Part shown: one piece after another, positions 29,453 to 57,978 of the stretch
Layout: every line of letters starts with the position of its first letter
Numbering within the stretch: the first letter of the stretch is position 1
Assembly: GCF_003144245.1 (NCBI RefSeq)
Contig: NW_020289982.1
Location: 620,001 to 684,000 of the forward strand
DNA: 64,000 nt
Reading direction: 5' to 3'
Source: Jaminaea rosea
Taxonomy: Eukaryota; Basidiomycota; Exobasidiomycetes; Microstromatales
Notes under the pieces: generated by a model
Seen by the model: only the letters and a program-made list of their open reading frames with translations
Told to the model about the DNA's origin: nothing
Database searches by the model: none
Position numbers and translations under genes: made by a program

Positions 29453-31312
29453 TCACTCGCGGTAGTCTACGAGTCCTGCCGTCAGGACGAGCGCATTGAG
29501 CCAGTCGGTCCCAATCGAGTCGTCGCCGTAGAGGAATCGCAGCCCCGAAACAATGTTGGCAAAATAGGGCGCAGAGACGTCGTCGCCAGATCCAGTGTAC
29601 GAGCTGTCGCCATCAACAGCAGGGCCAGCGACCCACGATCCGAGTCCAGTGAGGATGGAGCGAGGTAAGCCAGAGCAGACGAGGCTGGCCGTCTCTGCGC
29701 TCTGAGCAGACGTCATCTTGGTGTAGAGTGCCGACGATTTGGCCGCCGCGTACGAAGTCTCTGCACTTCGAGCCGCCGCAGCCTTCTGAGAAATGTCGGT
29801 CCATGAGTAGGGGTCGCATGACGACGTGCGTGCCAAGTTACTCTGCACCCATGTGCCCAAGTGAATGTTAACCCACGGCCTGAGCAGATCCTCCTTTGTC
29901 AGGGCAGAGAGAACCATTTGCTGGCCGGTGGCGTAATCGATGAGCTCGCCCTGCGTGCCATTGACGGCGCTCCACGAGTACGAATTGTAGCCGACGCGAC
30001 TGTGGCCCATCCAGAGGGGAAGCTCTTGCGCTCCAGAGGCTGGACTGACCTGCATCAGACCGAGTGAAGCACCAGAGTCCAGGCGACCGCCATTGTAAGC
30101 CGCGGGCAAAAAGTCAGACTCGGCCTTGATGTCGGCGAGGAGGTAGCGAACAGCATCCTGCTGCTTGAGCTCGGGCAAATAGCGACGGGTGGCAGACAGC
30201 AGGGCGGCCACGGTCTCTTGCTTTTGCGTCGAGTTGAGGTTGTCGCTGTCGCCCGCCCAGGCCATGATGGCATTGAGGTCGGCGAGGGCGGAGGCAGACG
30301 GGTAGCTGACGTATGCGGATGTAGGGGAGCCGCTCGAAGTGGCAGCAGCAGTCGAAGCGCGAGTCGTCGTTGTCGTCGTTGTGCGCGTAGTCGTGGCGCT
30401 GACAGTGCGCGTCGACGTAGTGGTCGAGGAGAAGGAGGAGGAGGTGGAGGTCGAGCTTGTGGCGCGGGCAGTAGCAGAAGAGGTCTTGGCGGACGAGCTG
30501 CTCTTGAGCGTGCTCGATGACGCTTTCGTGGTCGTTGACGACGTCTTTGTAGTCGAAGTGGCAGTCTTGGTCGACGAAGACGTCTTAGATGTTTGGCTGA
30601 CGGCCTTGATCGTCGTAGGCAAGCTCGTCGTGGCTCGCAGCGTGCTTGTCGTCTTGCGACTGCATTGAGCTGACTTGCGTTGGATCGACGTGCTGGTGGC
30701 CTTGGCAGCGGCTGCCTTGGATGCGGCCGCTGCTTTGGCCGCCGCAGCTTTAGCCGCCGCCTGCTTCCTCCTTCTCGCTGCCGCAGCGGCCTTCTTTCTC
30801 CTGGCGGCAGCGCTCAGCTTCTTGGTAGCGCGAGGGTGGACGTCCGCGGCGTGGCTTTCACTCTCAACGTCTGCGTCTTCGACCTGCCGCTCGTTGATGA
30901 CGGGGAAGTCTGCATTGCCTTGGCCCGCGGCAGATGTGCGACGCCTGGCCATGTGTCCGAGCCTGCCGTATCCAGGAGTGACGGCAGCCTTGGCCGCTTG
31001 CAGAATACGCCCCGCGTTGGCAGGCGCGAATCGCACAGCGTCTCGCTCCTCGAGCTGGGCCTCTACGATGTCGCGAATGGCCATATGCCCGAGTCTACCG
31101 TAGCCCGGGGTCACAGCCGCCTTTGCAGCCTTGAGAACCTTTGCTGCATTGGCCGGGGCGACACGCGCAGCATTGCGTCGGTCAAGAGGATGAGGGGCCG
31201 ACTCTCCACGATCTGCGAGCTCGCCGGCAGTCATGGGCTGTATGACCGCTGCCATGGACGTTGTGGCGATCCAGACGAAGAGGAGGAGAACGAGGCGCGC
31301 CTGTTTGTTCAT
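29453..31312 (-). CDS. Secreted protein with tandem peptide repeats and a lytic-transglycosylase-like domain
   Basis: A single exon of 619 aa from the ATG at 31312, where a signal peptide begins (about residues 1-21, LVLLLFVWIATTSMA). Residues 49-78 and 93-122 are two near-identical 30-residue repeats sharing AKAAVTPGYGRLGHMA. Dibasic sites LDRR (43-46) and ARRR (122-125) flank them, as in Kex2-processed precursors. Residues about 150-205 are an Ala/Lys/Arg-rich helix, followed by a Ser/Thr-rich linker to about 335. The C-terminal domain (about 345-619) carries IKAESDF (Glu398) followed by GASLGLMQVSP, matching the catalytic and second motifs of SLT-type lytic transglycosylases. The likely location is the cell wall or outside the cell. 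A muralytic function is inference from these motifs. The N-terminal repeats match nothing I know. Confidence 0.75.
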   Translation of the reverse strand: MNKQARLVLLLFVWIATTSMAAVIQPMTAGELADRGESAPHPLDRRNAARVAPANAAKVLKAAKAAVTPGYGRLGHMAIRDIVEAQLEERDAVRFAPANAGRILQAAKAAVTPGYGRLGHMARRRTSAAGQGNADFPVINERQVEDADVESESHAADVHPRATKKLSAAARRKKAAAAARRRKQAAAKAAAAKAAAASKAAAAKATSTSIQRKSAQCSRKTTSTLRATTSLPTTIKAVSQTSKTSSSTKTATSTTKTSSTTTKASSSTLKSSSSAKTSSATARATSSTSTSSSFSSTTTSTRTVSATTTRTTTTTTTRASTAAATSSGSPTSAYVSYPSASALADLNAIMAWAGDSDNLNSTQKQETVAALLSATRRYLPELKQQDAVRYLLADIKAESDFLPAAYNGGRLDSGASLGLMQVSPASGAQELPLWMGHSRVGYNSYSWSAVNGTQGELIDYATGQQMVLSALTKEDLLRPWVNIHLGTWVQSNLARTSSCDPYSWTDISQKAAAARSAETSYAAAKSSALYTKMTSAQSAETASLVCSGLPRSILTGLGSWVAGPAVDGDSSYTGSGDDVSAPYFANIVSGLRFLYGDDSIGTDWLNALVLTAGLVDYRE

Positions 31313-32981
31313 CGTGAATGCGAGGGAATGGAGGGAGGGGGTTTGCAGGAAATCAAAGGAGTGTGGGGTTGATGCGACGAGGACGAGGTCCAGCCTTGTT
31401 TCGTCGATCGAGAGGGGTGGAATGGAGAGAAGGGGTGAAGAGAGGTGAGGACGAGGGAAAAAGAGGGTCGAGCACCAGGCTGCCAAGATGATAAAGAGAG
31501 GAGCGGATGACAAAGAGGCCGCACTCGCGATCCTATCTCAAGGGGTTCGGCCTCTTAGGATGAGCGGAGCTCAGGCCCAGATTCGGCGGAGAGGGAGAAA
31601 GAGAATGGGGAGAGGAAGATGTCATCGTGGCCGCGGCCGCTCGTAGATGTTTGCGTGTCATTTGTCCATTGTGCTCATGGTGCCTGCGTCGGAGACTAGG
31701 TGTGGCTTGACTCCGTATTGACATGATCCAATGGAAGGAACCGCGAGCGCGTCTGGCGTGCCTTTCCGACGCCACTCCGCTGCCGCGAAGCCGGAACCAT
31801 CAGGCACCGCCGCGCCGAGGCATCCAACACTTCCATCCAACACGACCATCGCCGCAACCATCGCCCACGATCTCGCGCATCACGCAGACAGCCGCAGCTT
31901 TTCCTTCCCAAACGAGGCAAGTCAGGAGGAATGATGACACACAAGACGTGGCCACACAGACCTTGAGTAGTGGCAATCGCTAGTCCGCTGCCAGCACGTT
32001 CAGGGGCTCGAGCGCCAGAAAGATCGCTGGTGGTACGGCAAGCCGGACCGCCCGGGCAGCCTGATTGAGAGGTGGTCGAGCAACGCAAAGATGGGATTGT
32101 TCGTAATGGCCTACGGACGGCGCAAGCAATTGACGCTCTTAGAGCACATTCTTCAAGATGGTCATTACGCGCGCCGTCCAGTGCCTCCCTCATTCTCCTC
32201 ACCTTGTCATGGGTTCTCGAATGCTCATCATGTGTCCCCTTCGGCAAGGTCAAAGAGTCTTCCATCCAGCTCACTCTGAAGGCAGCAGCGGCTAAGCGCG
32301 GTAAGTGGCGAGAGGTATCGTGCGTGCTCAGAGGCACTTGCTTTCCAACCAGCGGCTACCTCCAACTCAGCCTCAACGTCGACGAGCAGGGAGTGGTATG
32401 GTTCCCTGACTTTTGCCCCTCTCACATGGCTACTGTGACTCGGCTTCTTTTTGCGCAAAGACGGGCATCCCGCTGTAACGAAGCTGCCCAGGCGTCGTCC
32501 AAAATTGAGGCGGGAGGTCTAGTGACGAGGGGCTCGAGCGTATGACCATTTGCCGAGCGAGCGGGACACCACCCCGCTACTTCGATGGGACGAGCTGGTT
32601 CCATCCGGAGCAACAAGCGGTCCCGCCTGTTCGCTTCAAGATGCGAGATTGAGTGGCTCTCACTCTGTGTAAGGGCGGCATGATGGCAAGTGACTCTCGC
32701 AACTGCACCAGGCTAACTGTAGTACTCGATCAGGTCGCGGGACCCGTCGGCTGCTAACCATGTTGTGGCTTCGTCCGCACGCTGGCAGCGGATTCGCGCC
32801 CATCGTCATGATACCCAATGACGGGCTCGCTAGGTAGCTGCTAACGTTCGAGAACGCGGTTCGACCGCTGTGCCCTCAATCGTCGCAGAGCGCTGCGATG
32901 TCTTAAGTAGGCACGCCCTCTGCTGATCCTCGCCCTCACTCCCCCTGCCACCTCCTCGCTCATTCATCCAATCCTACCACC
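31313..32981. promoter_or_regulatory. 1.7-kb divergent intergenic region
   Basis: This region lies between two secreted-protein genes transcribed away from each other. Near its right end are elements shared with the other two His-Pro gene promoters: CCATTTGCCGAGCGA at 32546-32560, then GCGGGACACC...CCCGC at 32561-32577, and a TTAAGTAGGC box about 80 bp before the ATG. Overlapping open frames at 31696-32545 have no recognisable domain. Confidence 0.45.
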
Positions 32982-34028
32982 ATGAAGCTCTCATCGGCAC
33001 CAATTCTGATCGCCATCTTCATGGCTGCGACTGCAGCCGCGAGGCCTGCTCCGCTCGAAGCTCGAGGCGGCGACAAGCATCACCCTGCGCCCTCTCCTCA
33101 TCCTCACCCGCACCCTCACCCCGAGGTGAACCATCCTCACCCTCACCCCGATGTGAATCATCCTCACCCTCACCCCGAGCCGCACCACCCGCATCCTCAC
33201 CCTGAGCCTCTGCATCCTTCTCATCCGCAGGCTAGAGGGCACCCGGCTGAGGCCCATCCTCATGCTCATCCCGATCATCCCGCTTCGCACCCGCACCCTA
33301 AGAAGGAACATCCGCATCCGCAAGCTCATCCCCAGCCCGATTCTAAGCACCCTCAATCCCACCCAAAGGGAGAGAAGCCCAAGAATCAGCACCCTCATCC
33401 TCACCCTGCTGCGAAGCATCCTCACCCCAAAGATCACCCTGCTCCAGCCCATCCTCACCCTCATCCTCATCCTCACCCGCACCCCCATCCCGACCCTCAC
33501 CCTCACCCGAGCTCGACCTCTCCAACTTCTTCCGGACCTACCACTGAGCCCACCCCGGCCCCAGCACCGAGCCCGCCTACCTCTGGCCAGTTCTCCTACA
33601 TCGAGGTCGACAGCACTAAGCCGGCTCAATTGTTGGGTGACAACGTCGAGAGCGACGGTCTCTTTTCGGACTCGTCTTTCGTCCACGTCGTCAGCAGTGG
33701 TCAGATTTGGACGCTGACCAGCGAGATGAAGCTGCTGTCGCCCAATGGTCGTATCCTCTACAGCGGTGGTGAAGGAGGCATCTCATCGGTCAAGCCCGAA
33801 GACTCTGCGACCATGGACCCATCCGCGGCGCCTTATATTTGCACAGTCAATGAGGCCTCGTACAGAGGGCTCGCCATCCTCGACTGCACCGCCACGACGC
33901 CTACAGGTAATGCCGACTCTTTTGTGGTCTGCAACGATGGCCAAGTCCAGGGAAGTGAGGACCTGTGCAATGCCTTCTTTGGCGGCGTGCAGACAACTTT
34001 CACTCAATTCACCCTCACCGCGTCCTGA
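32982..34028 (+). CDS. Secreted His-Pro-rich protein, paralogue 1
   Basis: A single exon of 348 aa. A signal peptide (MKLSSAPILIAIFMAATAAA) is followed by LEARGG and then about 165 residues of HPHP-type repeats (roughly 30-195), including runs such as HPHPHPHPHPHPHP. A Thr/Pro hinge leads to a C-terminal domain (about 205-348) that starts GQFSYIEVD and ends QTTFTQFTLTAS. Four cysteines are spaced C-x14-C-x14-C-x11-C, allowing two disulfides. Two paralogues follow in tandem on the same strand. Dense histidines suggest binding of Zn or Cu, as known for histidine-proline-rich glycoproteins, but metal binding here is inference. I do not recognise the C-terminal domain. The start context is CACCATGA. 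Confidence 0.85.
   Translation: MKLSSAPILIAIFMAATAAARPAPLEARGGDKHHPAPSPHPHPHPHPEVNHPHPHPDVNHPHPHPEPHHPHPHPEPLHPSHPQARGHPAEAHPHAHPDHPASHPHPKKEHPHPQAHPQPDSKHPQSHPKGEKPKNQHPHPHPAAKHPHPKDHPAPAHPHPHPHPHPHPHPDPHPHPSSTSPTSSGPTTEPTPAPAPSPPTSGQFSYIEVDSTKPAQLLGDNVESDGLFSDSSFVHVVSSGQIWTLTSEMKLLSPNGRILYSGGEGGISSVKPEDSATMDPSAAPYICTVNEASYRGLAILDCTATTPTGNADSFVVCNDGQVQGSEDLCNAFFGGVQTTFTQFTLTAS
33091..33515 (+). repeat. Coding His-Pro hexanucleotide repeat
   Basis: Recurrent CCTCAC/CATCCT hexamers encode His-Pro in paralogue 1. Related shorter arrays occur at about 35094-35148 (paralogue 2) and 36820-36970 (paralogue 3). The near-pure CCTCAC runs would be prone to length change. Confidence 0.7.
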
Positions 34029-34804
34029 AACTGGTAGAGATGCTCGCCATCACTCACGGACAATCGCTGCCGTAGTCTTCAACTTCCTCCGTGACAACTC
34101 GACGCTTTCAATCACCTGAGTCTGTGTCCCGCGCCTGCGCTGCTACTGTGTCACTTCAATCTGTCGAGTTACCAATCTGTATTTCCTGTTCTTTGCTACC
34201 GAATGATGATGCCCGTAGTGTCTGAGATCTCATATGAGGCGTTGTCCCGCCCCAAAGGGCCCGAGTGTTCGAATAGAGCATTGTTCGCGTCCCGTCGTGC
34301 CATTTGCCGAGCGAATCTTGTCCACCATCTCGCTGGTTCCCATGGAAGCGTGGAAGTCGGCAAGCGAGGAAGCGGGGAAGCGGCGCAGATCCCGTGTTGT
34401 CATTTTGAGGTCAGACGCGGGCCGCCTGATACAACCGTCTTTCGATCCACGCTGAATCTCACTGTCACGCATTGGTTTCGACGGTCAGATCGCGGGATCG
34501 CGAGCGCTTCTAGAACGTCAGCCGCCTGTAGCAGTGGAAAGCGGCCCATTTAATGCGACAGGACCAAAGGGCTCGGTCACGGGCCCATCGAGGTATCCCG
34601 TCTCGACGATCGTCCCGCCATCGAAAATTCTCTGTTCATTCAGGCTCCTCGCCGGATTTGAGGGACGACGGCGGCTCTTTCCTTTGGCAGCTCAATAGAC
34701 TGGATGCAACGATATAAGTAGATGCGCTGACCACTGCGACAACCTCTCCATCTTCACACCTCCCACCTCAAGCCTCAAGTCCCTCACGCCCACTCATTGG
34801 CATC
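34029..34804 (+). promoter_or_regulatory. Promoter region of His-Pro paralogue 2
   Basis: It carries a TATA-like GATATAAGTAG at about 34710-34720, roughly 90 bp before the ATG. CATATGAGGCGTTGTCCCGC at 34231-34250 is closely matched upstream of paralogue 3. CCATTTGCCGAGCGA at 34300-34314 is identical to a 15-mer upstream of paralogue 1. Several GTCCCG/CGGGAC sites lie in between. Confidence 0.55.
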
Positions 34805-35668
34805 ATGAAGCTCTCAAACCTCACCCTCTTCGTCGCCGTTGCCATGGCCGGCACCGCCGTGGCTATGCCCGCCCACCTCGACGCTCGAGGGGGAAAGCAA
34901 GACCACCCGAAGGATGTGGCTCACCCCAAGCACCCAGACCACCCCAAGCACCCCGCAAAGGGCGACCACCCCAAGCACCCCAAGCACCCGGCAAAGGGTG
35001 ATCACCCCAAGCCAGCTCCGAAGCACCCCAAGTCGAAGCACCCAAAGAAGCAGCCGTCGAAGGACCCTCATCCCACCAAGGGCAAGGGCGAGCCTCACCC
35101 TCATCCCAAGCCGCACCCTCACCCTCACCCTCACCCTCACCCTAGTCCCGTCACTCCCACTCCTCCCGGGCCCACCGACCCCGTCCCGACGCCGCCGGTC
35201 AAGAAGGACCCACCCACGGCGGGTACCCTGTCCTACATCGAGGCGGACGGTGATAAAGTCGCGCAACTCCTCGACGACGATGACGAGAGCATCAATGGAG
35301 ACCCAAACTTTGACTACTCCAACGTCCACACTGTAGACGAAGCTCAGGCGTGGTCGCTCAATGACAAGAAGGAGCTCATGTCTTCCCGTGGACGCATTCT
35401 AGCCACAAGCGGCGGTTTCATCGGGACTTTCGGCGCTGCGAATCCTGACCTGCAAGACCCCTCCGTCGCAACTTTCAAGTGCGCGACGAATCAGGCCTCG
35501 GATGAGACTACCGCCATTCTCGACTGTGTGGCCGCGACGGATGTCAACAGTGTCGACACCTTCTTCATTTGCAATAACGGAGGACTTGAAGGTGACAGCG
35601 AGGTGTGCGAGAATAGGTTCGGTGGTACGCAGACGACTTTCACTCAGTTCACGCTCACCAAGGCCTGA
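34805..35668 (+). CDS. Secreted His-Pro/Lys-rich protein, paralogue 2
   Basis: A single exon of 287 aa. A signal peptide (MKLSNLTLFVAVAMAGTAVA) is followed by LDARGG, then a Lys-His-Pro region (about 30-90, units like KHPKHPAKGDHP) and a pure HPHP block (about 95-115). After a Pro/Thr hinge, the C-terminal domain (about 140-287) begins GTLSYIEAD, contains QAWSLNDKKELMSSRGRI, and ends QTTFTQFTLTKA. The cysteine spacing is C-x14-C-x14-C-x11-C, identical to paralogue 1. The Lys-His-Pro repeat adds a strong positive charge, which could favour wall or nucleic-acid binding (inference). It lies about 780 bp from paralogue 1 and 970 bp from paralogue 3, in the same orientation. Confidence 0.85.
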   Translation: MKLSNLTLFVAVAMAGTAVAMPAHLDARGGKQDHPKDVAHPKHPDHPKHPAKGDHPKHPKHPAKGDHPKPAPKHPKSKHPKKQPSKDPHPTKGKGEPHPHPKPHPHPHPHPHPSPVTPTPPGPTDPVPTPPVKKDPPTAGTLSYIEADGDKVAQLLDDDDESINGDPNFDYSNVHTVDEAQAWSLNDKKELMSSRGRILATSGGFIGTFGAANPDLQDPSVATFKCATNQASDETTAILDCVAATDVNSVDTFFICNNGGLEGDSEVCENRFGGTQTTFTQFTLTKA

Positions 35669-36633
35669 TTTCTCGGCAACTCCACAACATGTCTCCGTCT
35701 ACATCCGTCCCTCCGCGGTGGTGGCGGCTTCACACTCTCTTTGACGCGGACTTTGTGCTTCCTTCGCCTTCATTGCGTACGGTCTCTTCGTTACTTAATC
35801 TGACCACTTGCTGCTCTCCTTCCTTTCCTTGCAACGTCCGAGGGATCTGGCTCGATGTTCTCACCTTGCTTGCGAAGATGACCCCTACGAAGGCAGCGCC
35901 GAGCGTCTCAGTCAAGTCTTCTCCTTTCCGCCAAGTCAAGTCGAGCGGACGAGCCACCGCTGGGCTGGTTCTGCTGGCCAGCAAGCGGGAAGCGACGCAA
36001 AGGCGGATCTGTGTTTGACCGCGGCGCCTGACGTACCGTACAAAGAGCCTCAAACTGCCGCTGAATTCCGATTGCGTCTCCCCTCCATGGTCGCTTGACA
36101 TCCTCGAAGTCTGAGATTCTCGAATGTTGCATCTCTTCGCCTCATTGTGCGCCACGTTTCTATGCTCGCAGATCTTCTGTCAGCTCCTCTTCGCTACAAA
36201 GTGCTGGCGTCTCCTATGAGGCGTCGTCCCGCGTCGCTTCGAAGACGACTCCCGCTTCAAGAGGTCCGAGCGTTGTTGGTCCCGTCTCATCTTGCCACGA
36301 TCTGAGTCGTCTAGCGAATGGAACATGGTCCCGGTGATTCGAATGTTCGCAGCAAGGCGGGACACATCCCGTCGCCTCACTGTGATGCGCCGCTCCGGGC
36401 CAGTAGGCTTGAGATCGATGTCCGTGAGATCGGAGATGCTGCTGTCAGCGAAGGTTCTGACGTTCAGATCGCGATGAAGGAAAGCAGCTACCTACGCGAC
36501 AGAGCAGGAGTGACTCAGTCCACCTGCAGGTGCCGACATATCGTCCAAGATGTGAGGTCCCGGGTGAAGGATATATAATCAGCAGCCATGAGATCCCTAG
36601 TTGCTGAAGGCCCTCACGCATCTACCCGTTGCC
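35669..36633 (+). promoter_or_regulatory. Promoter region of His-Pro paralogue 3
   Basis: A TATA box ATATATAA is present at about 36571-36578, roughly 60 bp before the ATG. CTATGAGGCGTCGTCCCGC at 36214-36232 matches the paralogue 2 promoter. GCGGGACACATCCCG at 36357-36371 resembles the paralogue 1 site. TTCAGATCGCGATGAAG near 36460 has a counterpart near 34484. No other gene was seen in the 965 bp. Confidence 0.5.
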
Positions 36634-37656
36634 ATGAGGCTGTCTACGTTGTCCATCTTCGTCGCCTTCGCCATCTCGGCTGCGGCTGCAATGCCTACGC
36701 AGCTTGATGAGCGAGGTGGCAAGAACCACAAAAAGCACCCCGCTCAACATCACCCAGCAAAGGGCGGCGACGGACACCCCAAGCACCCTCTCAAGAAGCC
36801 TCACCCCAAGCCCAAATCGAAGCCTCACCCTCACCCGGCCAAAGGAAAGAAGGATAAGGGAACGACGAAGCATCCCCACCCTCACCCGAAACCCAAGAAG
36901 GACAAGCCGTCGCCGCACCCTCATCCCCATCCGCACCCACACCCACTTCCGCATCCCAAGCCTCACCCAAGCTCACCTACTCCTGGAGACAATCCCCCCA
37001 GAGGTGACGACCCAGCCGACACACCTCCCAAGGACGATGGTGGTGACACAACGACTCCTCCCGGTGATGGTGGTGACAACACAACTCCTCCTGGCGAGGG
37101 TGATGGCAACACGACTCCTCCAGGTGACGACGGTGACACGACGCCTCCTGGCGACGACGGTGACACGACACCTCCCGGCGATGATCCAATCGAGAGTCCG
37201 TCGCCGCCCACCAGGGGCGTCTTGTCCTACAACGCCGATGAAGGCGTCTATCTCCTGGGTGACAACCTGTCCAACGATCCCGAGCCGGACAATTCAGAAC
37301 TGGGTTTGGTAGCGTACCCTCAGACGTGGTCGCTGTCCCAAGAAGGGTTCCTCGTCGCCCCCTCGGGCCGCTACGTGTACGCTCAAACTCCCGACTACGC
37401 CTACTACGTTCAACTCGCGAAGCCTAACAGCCCAGTCCTCGACCAATTCCCTGCCGCGCCCTACAAATGCACGGTAAACTCTGAGGCCTCGAATGAACAG
37501 GCTGCCGTCCTGGACTGTACAGCGACGACGACGGCTGGCAGCTTCGACTCCTTTACAATTTGCTATGACCACCGCATCGAGGGCGACGCAATTGGCTGCG
37601 GAGGCGACGACGAGGTCATAAGATCGTTCAAGCAGTTCACCCTCACCGCGGACTGA
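36634..37656 (+). CDS. Secreted His-Pro/Lys-rich protein with TTPPGDDGD repeats, paralogue 3
   Basis: A single exon of 340 aa from the ATG at 36634 (the upstream part of the frame has only a TTG). A signal peptide (MRLSTLSIFVAFAISAAAA) is followed by LDERGG and then a Lys-His-Pro region (about 28-125) with HPHPHPHPHPLPHPKP. Unlike its paralogues it next has an acidic minisatellite-encoded stretch, TTPPGDDGD-type units (about 130-185). The C-terminal domain has YKC, LDC, TIC and IGC cysteines spaced C-x15-C-x14-C-x11-C and ends FKQFTLTAD. The opposed basic and acidic repeat blocks are odd. It is the last of the three-gene array, and POL3 lies convergently 209 bp downstream. Confidence 0.85.
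   Translation: MRLSTLSIFVAFAISAAAAMPTQLDERGGKNHKKHPAQHHPAKGGDGHPKHPLKKPHPKPKSKPHPHPAKGKKDKGTTKHPHPHPKPKKDKPSPHPHPHPHPHPLPHPKPHPSSPTPGDNPPRGDDPADTPPKDDGGDTTTPPGDGGDNTTPPGEGDGNTTPPGDDGDTTPPGDDGDTTPPGDDPIESPSPPTRGVLSYNADEGVYLLGDNLSNDPEPDNSELGLVAYPQTWSLSQEGFLVAPSGRYVYAQTPDYAYYVQLAKPNSPVLDQFPAAPYKCTVNSEASNEQAAVLDCTATTTAGSFDSFTICYDHRIEGDAIGCGGDDEVIRSFKQFTLTAD
37043..37191 (+). repeat. Coding minisatellite (TTPPGDDGD units)
   Basis: Imperfect tandem copies of a unit near 27-30 bp encode variants of TTPPGDDGD within paralogue 3. Adjacent units at about 37120-37180 are almost identical (GACACGACGCCTCCTGGCGA-like), which suggests recent slippage or unequal exchange. Confidence 0.7.
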
Positions 37657-53985: not shown

Positions 53986-55626
53986 CTAGACGAGGAAGCG
54001 GAAGGAGGAGCGGATCTTCTTGTGGTAGCCCGGCGAGCCAGTCGTGAGCGGGTTGGCCTTCTGTGGCGTGGTGGGAGGACGAGGGTGCGTCTTGCCCTGC
54101 TCCTCCTGCTGAGACTTGGTGTCCTTGGCCTTCTGAGGGGCGTCCGAATTCTGGACCTGGCTCTGCTGCTGCTGCATCTGGCTGTTGGCCAAGGGACCCA
54201 GGATGTTCTCAGCCACGTCGAGAGGGTTGGGGTACCAGAGCGTCTCGGGGTAGGAGCAGGTGCGGGTGGGCTTCTTGCCTGCTAGCTTGTCTGCAAAGTA
54301 CCTGCGTAGGCGGGTGATGAAGACGGGCTGCGCTTGAACACCAGTGAGGACGTGGATTCCGCTAGCGAGGGATTCAAACTCGATGGTGGCTCCCTGCGCG
54401 CACTGGCTCTCAGCGTAGGCGCGAGACTGGTTGTAAGGAACAATCTCGTCACCACGCGAGTGCATGAGGTAGATGGGGAAGTTGACGATGGGAGGCTGGT
54501 TGGCTCCGAGGTTCTCCTGCGCAAAGACTGCCTTGAGCGTGGGGTCCTCGGAGATGTTCCTGCCCTGGGCGTCGAGCCTGAATCCATCATCGAGCTTGAG
54601 GGGACCATTGAGGTAGGCATCCTGCGCACATGAGACGCCGGTGTGAACGGCCTCGAAGATGTCGGCGGGCATTCCAGGCTTGACACGCTGGCGCAACATT
54701 CTGTCGAGCTCCGGGTAGCCATTGCCCAGGCCAGCTGCGCCAATGTAGCCGAGCGTGGCGGAGCCGGTGCCATCGAGGTAGTGAACCGTCTCCTCAACGT
54801 TGGCGGGGAGGCCTCCTGCTACGACGCCGGCGATGTTGAGCTCAGGTGCGTAGGTAGAGGCGAGTTGAGCAGCCCACATGACAGCGTGAGAGCCGCCGGA
54901 GTAGCCGTTGATGCCGTGGATGGCCTGCTTGCCCAATGCGGCGGGCATCGTCTCGACATGGCGCTCGGCCACGCGCATTGAGTCGAGCATAGCCTGTCCC
55001 TCGATGTGGCCTACGAGCCAGGCGGCCTTGGACCCCTCGAAGTCGGGTGAATTGGCCCACCAGCCCTGGTGGACAGCAGAAACGGGAGTGAGGAGAGCTG
55101 TGACCTCGAGAGTGTTGTTCGAAGTAGTGCCGGCGATGTAGGTGTAGCTGGGAGCACAGTCGATGGCAGCCGAGTTGACTGGCGTACCGACGGTGACGAT
55201 GCGGGGCGGGCCAGGTGCGGGGAACTTTGGAGCGACGAGGGTCGTGACCGTAGCGTCTGGGACGGTCTGATTGCCACTTTGACCCGTGGTGCGGTAGAGG
55301 ACGTGGTAGGCCGAAGCAGCCTCGGGACCAAATGAGCTGAGGTCGATGGGGCGCGAGCGGATGACGTCGCCGAGCTTGTACGCCGAGAGATTGGCAGGCA
55401 GCCTGAGCGGGAGATGTGAGCGGGCGAGGCGCGGAGCTGTGAGCGAGAGGGTAGAGAGCTGCTTCGCTCAGCGCCGCACCACTCACTTGTAGAAAGGGTC
55501 CATGGAAGGAGGCGGGAATGCTGGCTTTGGCTTGGGACCAAGGGGACCAAGGAGGCGAGGGTGTATAGAGGCGCCAGCAGCGACCATGGCGGAGGTGGCA
55601 AAAGTGACGACCGTCGATGCGAGCAT
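53986..55626 (-). CDS. Secretory lipase (LIP family), copy 1
   Basis: Exons 55487-55626 and 53986-55402 are joined across an 84-bp GTGAGT...CTCAG phase-2 intron and give 518 aa. The first exon is a signal peptide (MLASTVVTFATSAMVAAGAS) plus PSMDPFYK, and splicing gives DPFYKLPANLSAYKLGDVI. The family core is present: SAAIDCAPSYTYI, NGYSGGSHAVMWAAQ (Ser about 213), YLMHSRGDEIVPYNQS (Asp about 361) and ASGIHVLTG (His about 397). Members hydrolyse triacylglycerols outside the cell. Beyond the fold it has an unusual 85-residue Gln/Lys/Pro-rich tail (QMQQQQSQVQNSD...), missing from the neighbouring copy. The large second exon has no ATG for its first 137 codons, so gene finders that need ATG would truncate it at 54990. 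Confidence 0.88.
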
Positions 55627-56524: not shown

Positions 56525-57978
56525 CTAGAGTGGGAAGAGACCGTTCTTGGCTTGGGCCCGCCAGTAGGCAATCGAGTTTGCGGCGCCGTGACCAATGAGA
56601 TCCGTAAGACCTGGCCCGCCTTCAGGGACAGGAGGAATCGACTGCGCATCAATGCCGCACGTCTTGACTTTGTAGCCCTGCTCCAGCACCTGGACAAGGC
56701 TGTTCAGCATCGCAGGCATGAAACGCAGTCCGCTCAAGATGTGTCCCGTCGCCGTAGCCCATGAAAGTTGGAGACGAGCACCCTCCTGCTCGCATTGCTG
56801 GTTGATATAGTGAACCATCTGGGGCCAGGGAACAATCTGGTCATTGCGGGCGTGGTAATAGATGGAAGAGATGCGATTGACCCTTTTGCCTAGCTTCTCC
56901 TCCTCCATGTGCTTGGCAACGACGGGATTCTGGAAGATGTCGCCGCCTGTGAAAGCAGTCTGCACGGGAACTCCAGAGAGATTTCGTGACGACTGGATCA
57001 AGCACCACTCGCCGCTCAGCATCTTGGTGAAGTTGGCTCGACCTGCGTGCGTGATGTGCTGGTCGAATACGGCTTGGACGTCTGGGCGTGCGTGTCCCAT
57101 TGCTGCTGCGCCTTGGAAGCCGAGGGCGGAGTATTCGCCGCCATTAAGGGTGTAGAATGTGTTGTTCGTATCGGCAGGCATGCCTCCGGTGACCATGCCA
57201 ATGATGGGAGAGTCAGGGTAGTAGCTGGCTGCCTCCTGCGCCGCCCAACCGACGGTGTGACCACCGCCCGAGTAGCCCATCATGGCAAAGTCTGCATTCT
57301 TGAGGGGAGCTGCGAAGTTGCGAGAGGCTCGGATGCCGTCGAGCATTGCGCGACCCTCGGTCAAGCCATTGAGGAAGGAGGACTGCGGGGAAGCTAGAGT
57401 GAGCGCGATGTAACGGCAGTGAGGTACTATGCTGCTCTCACCTTGGATCCCAGCGCATCAGGGATGACGACGTACCAGCCGCGAAAGAGGGCAGCGGTGG
57501 AAGCGGGCGAGTCAACGATGTTGACTAGGGGTAGATTCTTGGACTTGTCTGGGTTGGCATAGGCGAAGCTGGGACTGCAGTCGATGCTGGCCGAGCCGAC
57601 TGCGCTGCCAATGGCGAGTGCCTTGGGCTTGCCAGGTCGAGGAGCAATGGGGATGACGATGGTGGCTACCGTTGCGTCTGGTGCGCCCGTGTAGTCGGTG
57701 GTGAGGTAGAGGATTTGGTGGGCCTCTGCAGCAAATTGGCCAAAGGCGTCTGCGTTGCCCTGACGAGTGCCCAAGATGGCGCCCAAGGGATACTTGCCAA
57801 CGTCGGCGGGCACGCGATAGAAGGGATCCTTTGTTGGGAAAGCGAATGATGCGCCGTTCTTCTGCTTGGGCTGAGGGAGCAGGCGGCGGCCAAGGTGGGA
57901 TTGCGAGCGATGGCCATTTGATGCTGCAGCAGCGAGAGCAGCGACCAAGGCGTAGACGAGGCAGCTGATGAGTAGCAT
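56525..57978 (-). CDS. Secretory lipase (LIP family), copy 2
   Basis: Exons 57442-57978 and 56525-57382 are joined across a 59-bp GTGAGA...CCGCAG phase-0 intron and give 464 aa. A signal peptide (MLLISCLVYALVAALAAAAS) precedes GRRLLPQPKQK, a possible dibasic propeptide site. The core is KDPFYRVPADVGKYPLGAIL, SASIDCSPSFAYA, GWYVVIPDALGSK-SSFLNG across the splice, MMGYSGGGHTVGWAAQ (Ser about 214), YYHARNDQIVPWPQ (Asp about 356) and ATGHILSG (His about 390). The catalytic spacing matches copy 1, yet intron position and phase differ, so the duplication is old or the copies arrived separately. It lacks the Gln-rich tail. It is an extracellular lipase. Confidence 0.88.

Follow-up and report, generated by a model that had tools for sequence, protein, structure and literature searches.

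What kind of protein joins a signal-peptide-like start and a long His-Pro-rich tract to a small C-terminal domain with four cysteines, and what might such a protein do? The question is raised by three adjacent genes on contig C8 of the Jaminaea rosea assembly, which lie on the forward strand of the window, that is, the whole 64,000-nucleotide stretch of DNA that was analysed. A preliminary description had placed the three same-strand genes at 32982..37656. Their starts and ends proved exact, and each consists of one open frame.

Three genes for His-Pro-rich proteins

Gene 1 (32982..34028, plus strand, 348 aa, open from ATG to stop) encodes a His-Pro arm followed by the four-Cys domain. Gene 2 (34805..35668, plus strand, 287 aa, open frame) encodes a Lys-His-Pro arm and the domain, and gene 3 (36634..37656, plus strand, 340 aa, in the frame from the ATG at 36634) a Lys-His-Pro arm, acidic TTPPGDDGD repeats and the domain. 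The three proteins share, as had been described, a signal-peptide-like start, since a hydrophobic core is present in all of them. Judged from hydropathy (KD) and by eye, the putative signal peptides extend approximately over 32982..33041 in gene 1 (mean KD 2.59 for residues 8-18), 34805..34864 in gene 2 (2.27 for residues 6-16) and 36634..36690 in gene 3 (2.45 for residues 8-18), all on the plus strand. After this core the mean hydropathy of 19-residue stretches in the three proteins reaches at most 1.23. With an N-terminal core and no later hydrophobic 19-residue stretch the products therefore look both secreted and soluble, and the trio proteins are probably secreted. The previously noted L-(E/D)-x-RGG junction reads LEARGG in gene 1, LDARGG in gene 2 and LDERGG in gene 3. 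It provides all three window genes with a Kex2-type motif after a short pro-piece (LEAR, LDAR and LDER). L-x-x-R is given as a kexin site in a report which also calls Asp at P3 unfavourable (PMC8528282), and Asp occupies this position in genes 2 and 3. Kexin trimming is thus plausible by motif, with an unfavourable residue in two of the three proteins.

The arms lie between this junction and the domain. That of gene 1 (residues 29-200; 33066..33581, plus strand) contains 45 His, 58 Pro, 10 Lys plus Arg and 13 Asp plus Glu, and that of gene 2 (residues 29-138; 34889..35218, plus strand) 19 His, 36 Pro, 20 Lys and 9 Asp plus Glu. The arm of gene 3, delimited by composition and tandem repeats and including the acidic repeats (residues 28-193; 36715..37212, plus strand), has 19 His, 46 Pro, 22 Lys plus Arg and 23 Asp plus Glu. 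The His-Pro and Lys-His-Pro repeats are present as earlier described, and HP dipeptides are far more frequent than in shuffled sequences: 42, 19 and 17 were observed for genes 1, 2 and 3, whereas 2000 shuffles of each whole protein gave means of 8.9, 2.9 and 3.3 and maxima of 17, 8 and 12, respectively.

At the DNA level, adjacent His-Pro pairs use the same codons in two out of 21 cases in gene 1 (3.8 expected), in one out of seven in gene 3 (1.0 expected) and in four out of five in gene 2 (1.1 expected). Slippage of the DNA as the only origin of the tract was rejected, since the codon pairs of genes 1 and 3 are mixed. This mixture suggests that in these two genes it is the peptide that is maintained. 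For the tract of gene 2, recent slippage is possible.

The four-Cys domain and its family in the genome

The domain occupies 33582..34025 in gene 1 (copy W1), 35219..35665 in gene 2 (W2) and 37213..37653 in gene 3 (W3), all on the plus strand and as defined by alignment for W1 and W3. W1 matches W2 with an E value of 3.3e-32 (47% identity) and W3 with 6.6e-21 (41% identity), and W2 matches W3 with 1.0e-13 (36% identity). Since the pairwise E values range from 3.3e-32 to 1.0e-13, the likeness is beyond chance. The cysteine pattern C-x14/15-C-x14-C-x11-C reported before was recovered, with spacings of 14/14/11 in genes 1 and 2 and 15/14/11 in gene 3, and so were the shared FTQFTLT or FKQFTLT ends, as the three proteins finish with FTQFTLTAS, FTQFTLTKA and FKQFTLTAD. 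The trio thus shares the domain, but the view that it is held constant is too strong.

The domain is not confined to the three window genes. The assembly (21 contigs, 16.6 Mb) was searched with one protein at a time, the queries being the three window domains and two domains from outside the window, and every search recovered an identical set of 10 copies (E ≤ 0.0102 throughout). Three of the searches gave one extra match each (E 0.21-0.52), which was left out of the count. The search scores the best candidates only, and the genome contains at least 10 domain copies in seven genes. These are the window trio, a second trio on contig C11 (locus L035) and a single gene on contig C4 (L036) with four copies in a frame of 1033 residues. 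All seven genes encode a signal-peptide-like start and, after it, x-(E/D)-x-R, which begins with Leu in five of them; His-Pro stretches are likewise common to all seven. In addition, a Cys-rich module, C-x5-C-x-SG-x-C, precedes the His-Pro part in the C4 gene and in two genes of the C11 trio, but not in the first C11 gene or in the window trio. An apparent GT-AG intron, as read from the DNA alone, lies within or at the end of this module, and Pfam searches with the module gave only sub-cutoff matches (EB, Dickkopf_N, UPF0506 and others). In a tree built from these 10 domains the branches are long and six of the seven inner ones open, so that it supports no duplication order.

An alignment of the 10 copies shows no variation at the four Cys, at one Trp and at seven further positions, and the cysteine spacings range over 14-15, 14-16 and 11-14 residues. 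Acidic residues outnumber basic ones in nine domains, the exception being C4d1, which is balanced (15 and 15), and each copy has 0-2 His. The domains look constrained, with a dN/dS of 0.29-0.40 at a dS of 1.6-1.9 that is near saturation. The functional diversification proposed for the trio is compatible with its differing arms; the constraint concerns the domains.

That the domain was not recognised as a named one agrees with Pfam, in which no family is matched by any of the 10 copies at E ≤ 1. In NCBIfam only two weak matches were obtained, for one of the three window domains (E 0.038 and 0.096, far below the cutoff). PDB sequence searches returned nothing significant. Immunoglobulin chains among the matches were taken as chance, and lectin chains were kept as a lead because the fold comparison agrees with them. 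Searches of plasmids found no relative, and none of the stretches picked up in viral contigs (127, which matched a pattern) or in prokaryote genomes (30) was confirmed as one.

Yeast PIR wall proteins have the same order of parts, namely a signal peptide, a kexin site, repeats and a four-Cys end. A structural wall protein built in this way, from a pro-piece, repeats within the chain and a glucan-linked four-Cys domain at the C-terminus, is nevertheless highly improbable here. The PIR1-like_C model (PF22799) matches none of the 10 copies and recovers the end of yeast PIR, used as a control, with 4.3e-35; a single hhalign comparison gave a probability of 3.6% (E 0.012); and the yeast proteins differ from the trio in their domain and in their Cys spacing.

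The regions upstream of the trio genes share the 7-mer GCGGGAC. On the plus strand it is found at 32561, 32620 and 32737 upstream of gene 1 (region 31982..32981), at 34126, 34244 and 34612 upstream of gene 2 (34029..34804) and at 36226 and 36357 upstream of gene 3 (35669..36633). Thus, eight of the 15 sites in the window, where the 7-mer is not enriched overall (13.5 expected), fall into these 2741 bases. This concentration has a p of 5e-8, compared to 1.6e-7 for the best of 300 random segment triplets of the same lengths, drawn from intergenic and genic DNA alike. In L035, the roughly 1105 bases upstream of genes b and c contain six out of seven sites, and the remaining one precedes gene a by about 860 bases; one of 200 shuffles of L035 reached seven sites. 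The C4 gene has a single site about 180 bases before its ATG, which is within chance (1.4 expected). GCGGGAC is not a general mark of His-Pro genes, as 0, 2, 0 and 0 sites are present in L002, L005, L038 and L039, respectively. It was picked by eye in both loci before counting, and its clustering is a lead only towards shared control or common promoter ancestry.

The predicted fold and what it suggests

Structure prediction, which had been proposed as a check, gave one usable model out of two. The W2-led model (pLDDT 79.6, pTM 0.79) was assigned by fold comparison to the beta-trefoils and has the twelve strands in three four-strand units of this fold; the W1-led model (pLDDT 46.6) is not usable. 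Based on the W2 model we consider it likely that the four-Cys domain is a beta-trefoil, a fold that would extend to W1 and W3 by homology. In a viral fold library the model found no match at E ≤ 0.001. Many lectins and protease inhibitors are beta-trefoils, and hisactophilin is another His-rich trefoil. The fold does not bind metal by itself, and any metal role must therefore rest on the His-Pro arm alone. As to R-type lectins, all 10 copies were without a match to the ricin-B Pfam models at E ≤ 1, and one Q-x-W is present in six copies and none in the other four, whereas R-type lectins need it in each of three repeats.

Might the domain instead be a secreted protease inhibitor of the fungal mycospin, mycocypin or cocaprin type, which the arm would space or anchor? 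Lectin and designed trefoils score equally well in the fold comparison, where rows within one Z are tied, and no reactive loop can be assigned in the domain. CCL2 and the cocaprins resemble the trio in having a small trefoil domain (predicted in the trio), and the cocaprins are acidic 15 kDa proteins encoded by tandem genes (PMC9104457). However, CCL1, CCL2 and the cocaprins have no signal peptide, and the available parts of their descriptions mention no His-Pro arm (PMC9104457, PMC3355094); the trio domain, for its part, lacks a Pfam match. An inhibitor function is doubtful.

Sequence-unrelated beta-trefoil candidate effectors have been described in plant-pathogenic fungi (PMC9493481, PMC11872807). 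The trio genes are clustered and their products probably secreted, as would be expected of an apoplastic effector or elicitor whose trefoil acts on the host or is perceived by it. The Ecp32 family of Dothideomycetes, compared here by description and not by sequence, is similar in that it is a small gene family of likely apoplastic, predicted beta-trefoil proteins, which have none to five Cys (PMC9493481). But in the parts of these accounts that were available no His-Pro arm is mentioned (PMC9493481, PMC11872807), and we regard an effector of the Ecp32 kind as unlikely. The DELD proteins of Serendipita (Piriformospora) are also His-rich, presumed secreted and specific to one basidiomycete. Unlike the trio they are predicted to be helical, have no Cys and end with RSIDELD (PMC3192844), an end that is absent from the window proteins. 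Limited literature searches on His-Pro repeats, His-rich effectors, His-rich secreted beta-trefoils and Exobasidium found no account of the present family in the text retrieved. The gene family is real, and it combines an unnamed domain, by the model probably a beta-trefoil, with an unusual shared arm.

The His-Pro arm and its possible role

Elsewhere in the genome, His-Pro runs directly follow what looks like a signal peptide in four proteins whose loci contain none of the 10 domain copies. They are encoded on contig C15 near 90.4 kb (L002) and near 49-51 kb (L003), on C4 near 1100 kb (L005) and on C19 near 379 kb (L039); the frames of L002 and L039 were seen in part, as both extend past the stretch examined. 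They were found with a short protein query and with a DNA query that passes over simple repeats, so that there are at least four such proteins. The His-Pro tract is not specific to the four-Cys domain, and its presence in domain-carrying and domain-free proteins alike is the most unusual feature found here.

His-rich secreted proteins that possibly bind metal are known in fungi. The arms, with 45 His in gene 1 and 19 each in genes 2 and 3, could make the trio secreted metal scavengers, as proposed in the preliminary description: Zn or Cu would be chelated by the arm in the extracellular space, and the domain would then attach the metal-loaded protein to the cell. Yet the His content is very unequal between the arms, and no metal-uptake gene was recognised among those trio neighbours that were examined. 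Since, moreover, the domain has just 0-2 His per copy and the same tract is found on domain-free proteins, a scavenger is possible but not favoured, and we put it rather low.

We favour, with a probability of about 0.38 for the explanation as a whole, a secreted two-part protein in which the arm is a reversible anchor and the trefoil a specific binder. The signal peptide would be removed and the short pro-piece perhaps trimmed at L-x-x-R by a kexin-type protease, leaving exposed a flexible, proline-stiffened arm of His-Pro (and Lys). At acidic wall pH the arm would become more cationic, and it could bind Zn or Cu. It may concentrate the protein, in a reversible, pH- and metal-dependent manner, on acidic wall or matrix polymers of plant or fungal origin, or at metal. 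The small acidic C-terminal trefoil, with its four invariant Cys, would then bind specifically, most likely to a glycan or else to a protein, for example a protease, and the four-domain paralogue would add valency.

Among arms of this type that have been tested, the nearest is that of Arabidopsis AGP31, a protein that is alike in layout and shows no sign of kinship. At pH 4.8 in vitro, the bridging of pectic RG-II by boron is promoted by native AGP31 and also by its His-Pro peptide, although with the peptide it is slow and incomplete (PMC9555800, PMC10707938). The Cys-bonded C-terminal PAC domain of AGP31 is reported to interact with wall polysaccharides (PMC7177597). Like the trio, AGP31 is described as secreted, with a stretch ending HPHPHPHP close to the N-terminus, a Pro-rich middle and a Cys-bonded C-terminal beta domain. 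In contrast, PAC is a beta-barrel with six Cys, whereas the trio domain is a predicted beta-trefoil with four; four Cys are present in each of the 10 copies, none of which matches the Pfam model of PAC / Ole e 1. The arm could, more generally, be a portable secretome tag, a pH- and metal-switched electrostatic anchor directly after the signal peptides of several otherwise unlike secreted proteins, which is convergent with the His-Pro stretch of AGP31, perhaps acts on boron-bridged host pectin and has the trefoil family as its largest user. We think this improbable.

Because the arm is common to proteins without the domain in one genome, its role can be tested separately from that of any domain, and the parallel in layout to a pectin-acting plant wall protein suggests a concrete experiment. 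If the two-part reading holds, the four-domain C4 paralogue would be a multivalent cross-linker. The family, which has no Pfam name, adds to the beta-trefoil proteins now being reported from fungi, and in it a predicted trefoil is joined to a natural His-Pro polycation.

The Cys-rich module and the four-domain paralogue

In three paralogues, the His-Pro part is preceded by a Cys-rich module with the pattern C-x5-C-x-SG-x-C. Two of these lie in the contig C11 stretch that carries the second trio (L035, 4254-5092 and 5748-6655) and one in the contig C4 stretch (L036, 2059-2400); the window genes are without the module. Searches of the module against Pfam gave only sub-cutoff matches. The C4 paralogue comprises four copies of the four-Cys domain in a single frame (L036, 2280-5378), and copies 3 and 4 are set apart by a long stretch rich in Glu, Ala and Lys, with the appearance of a helical spacer. 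GCGGGAC sites are clustered 5' of family genes, at 31982-36633 in the window and at 3804-5747 in L035.

Other neighbours of the trio

A 619 aa minus-strand frame (window 29453-31312), secreted by appearance, matched nothing in Pfam at E <= 1, and towards its C-terminus it is, by eye, reminiscent of lysozyme-like transglycosylases. This frame also contains a near-duplicate of a roughly 30-residue segment, APANAGRILQAAKAAVTPGYGRLGHMA. Two minus-strand frames, at 53986-54990 and 56525-57346, match the secretory lipase (LIP) family of Pfam (E 4.9e-32 and 1.4e-26, respectively).

His-Pro runs elsewhere in the genome

Two further minus-strand frames, both secreted by appearance, contain His-Pro runs. 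One, on contig C19 (L039, 1-1701; ~379 kb), continues from its run into long TTTEEGSTPATYTTTSNSQPLIVVKTTPVPK repeats and, judged by eye, is adhesin-like; the portion within L039 had no Pfam match. The other, on contig C15 (L003, 1301-3070; ~49-51 kb), resembles a repeat precursor: it has His-Pro runs at both ends and about 12 repeats resembling DDDLVDAKDVNGGIFGLNNI, spaced by RR or KR, an arrangement like that of Kex2-processed repeat precursors.
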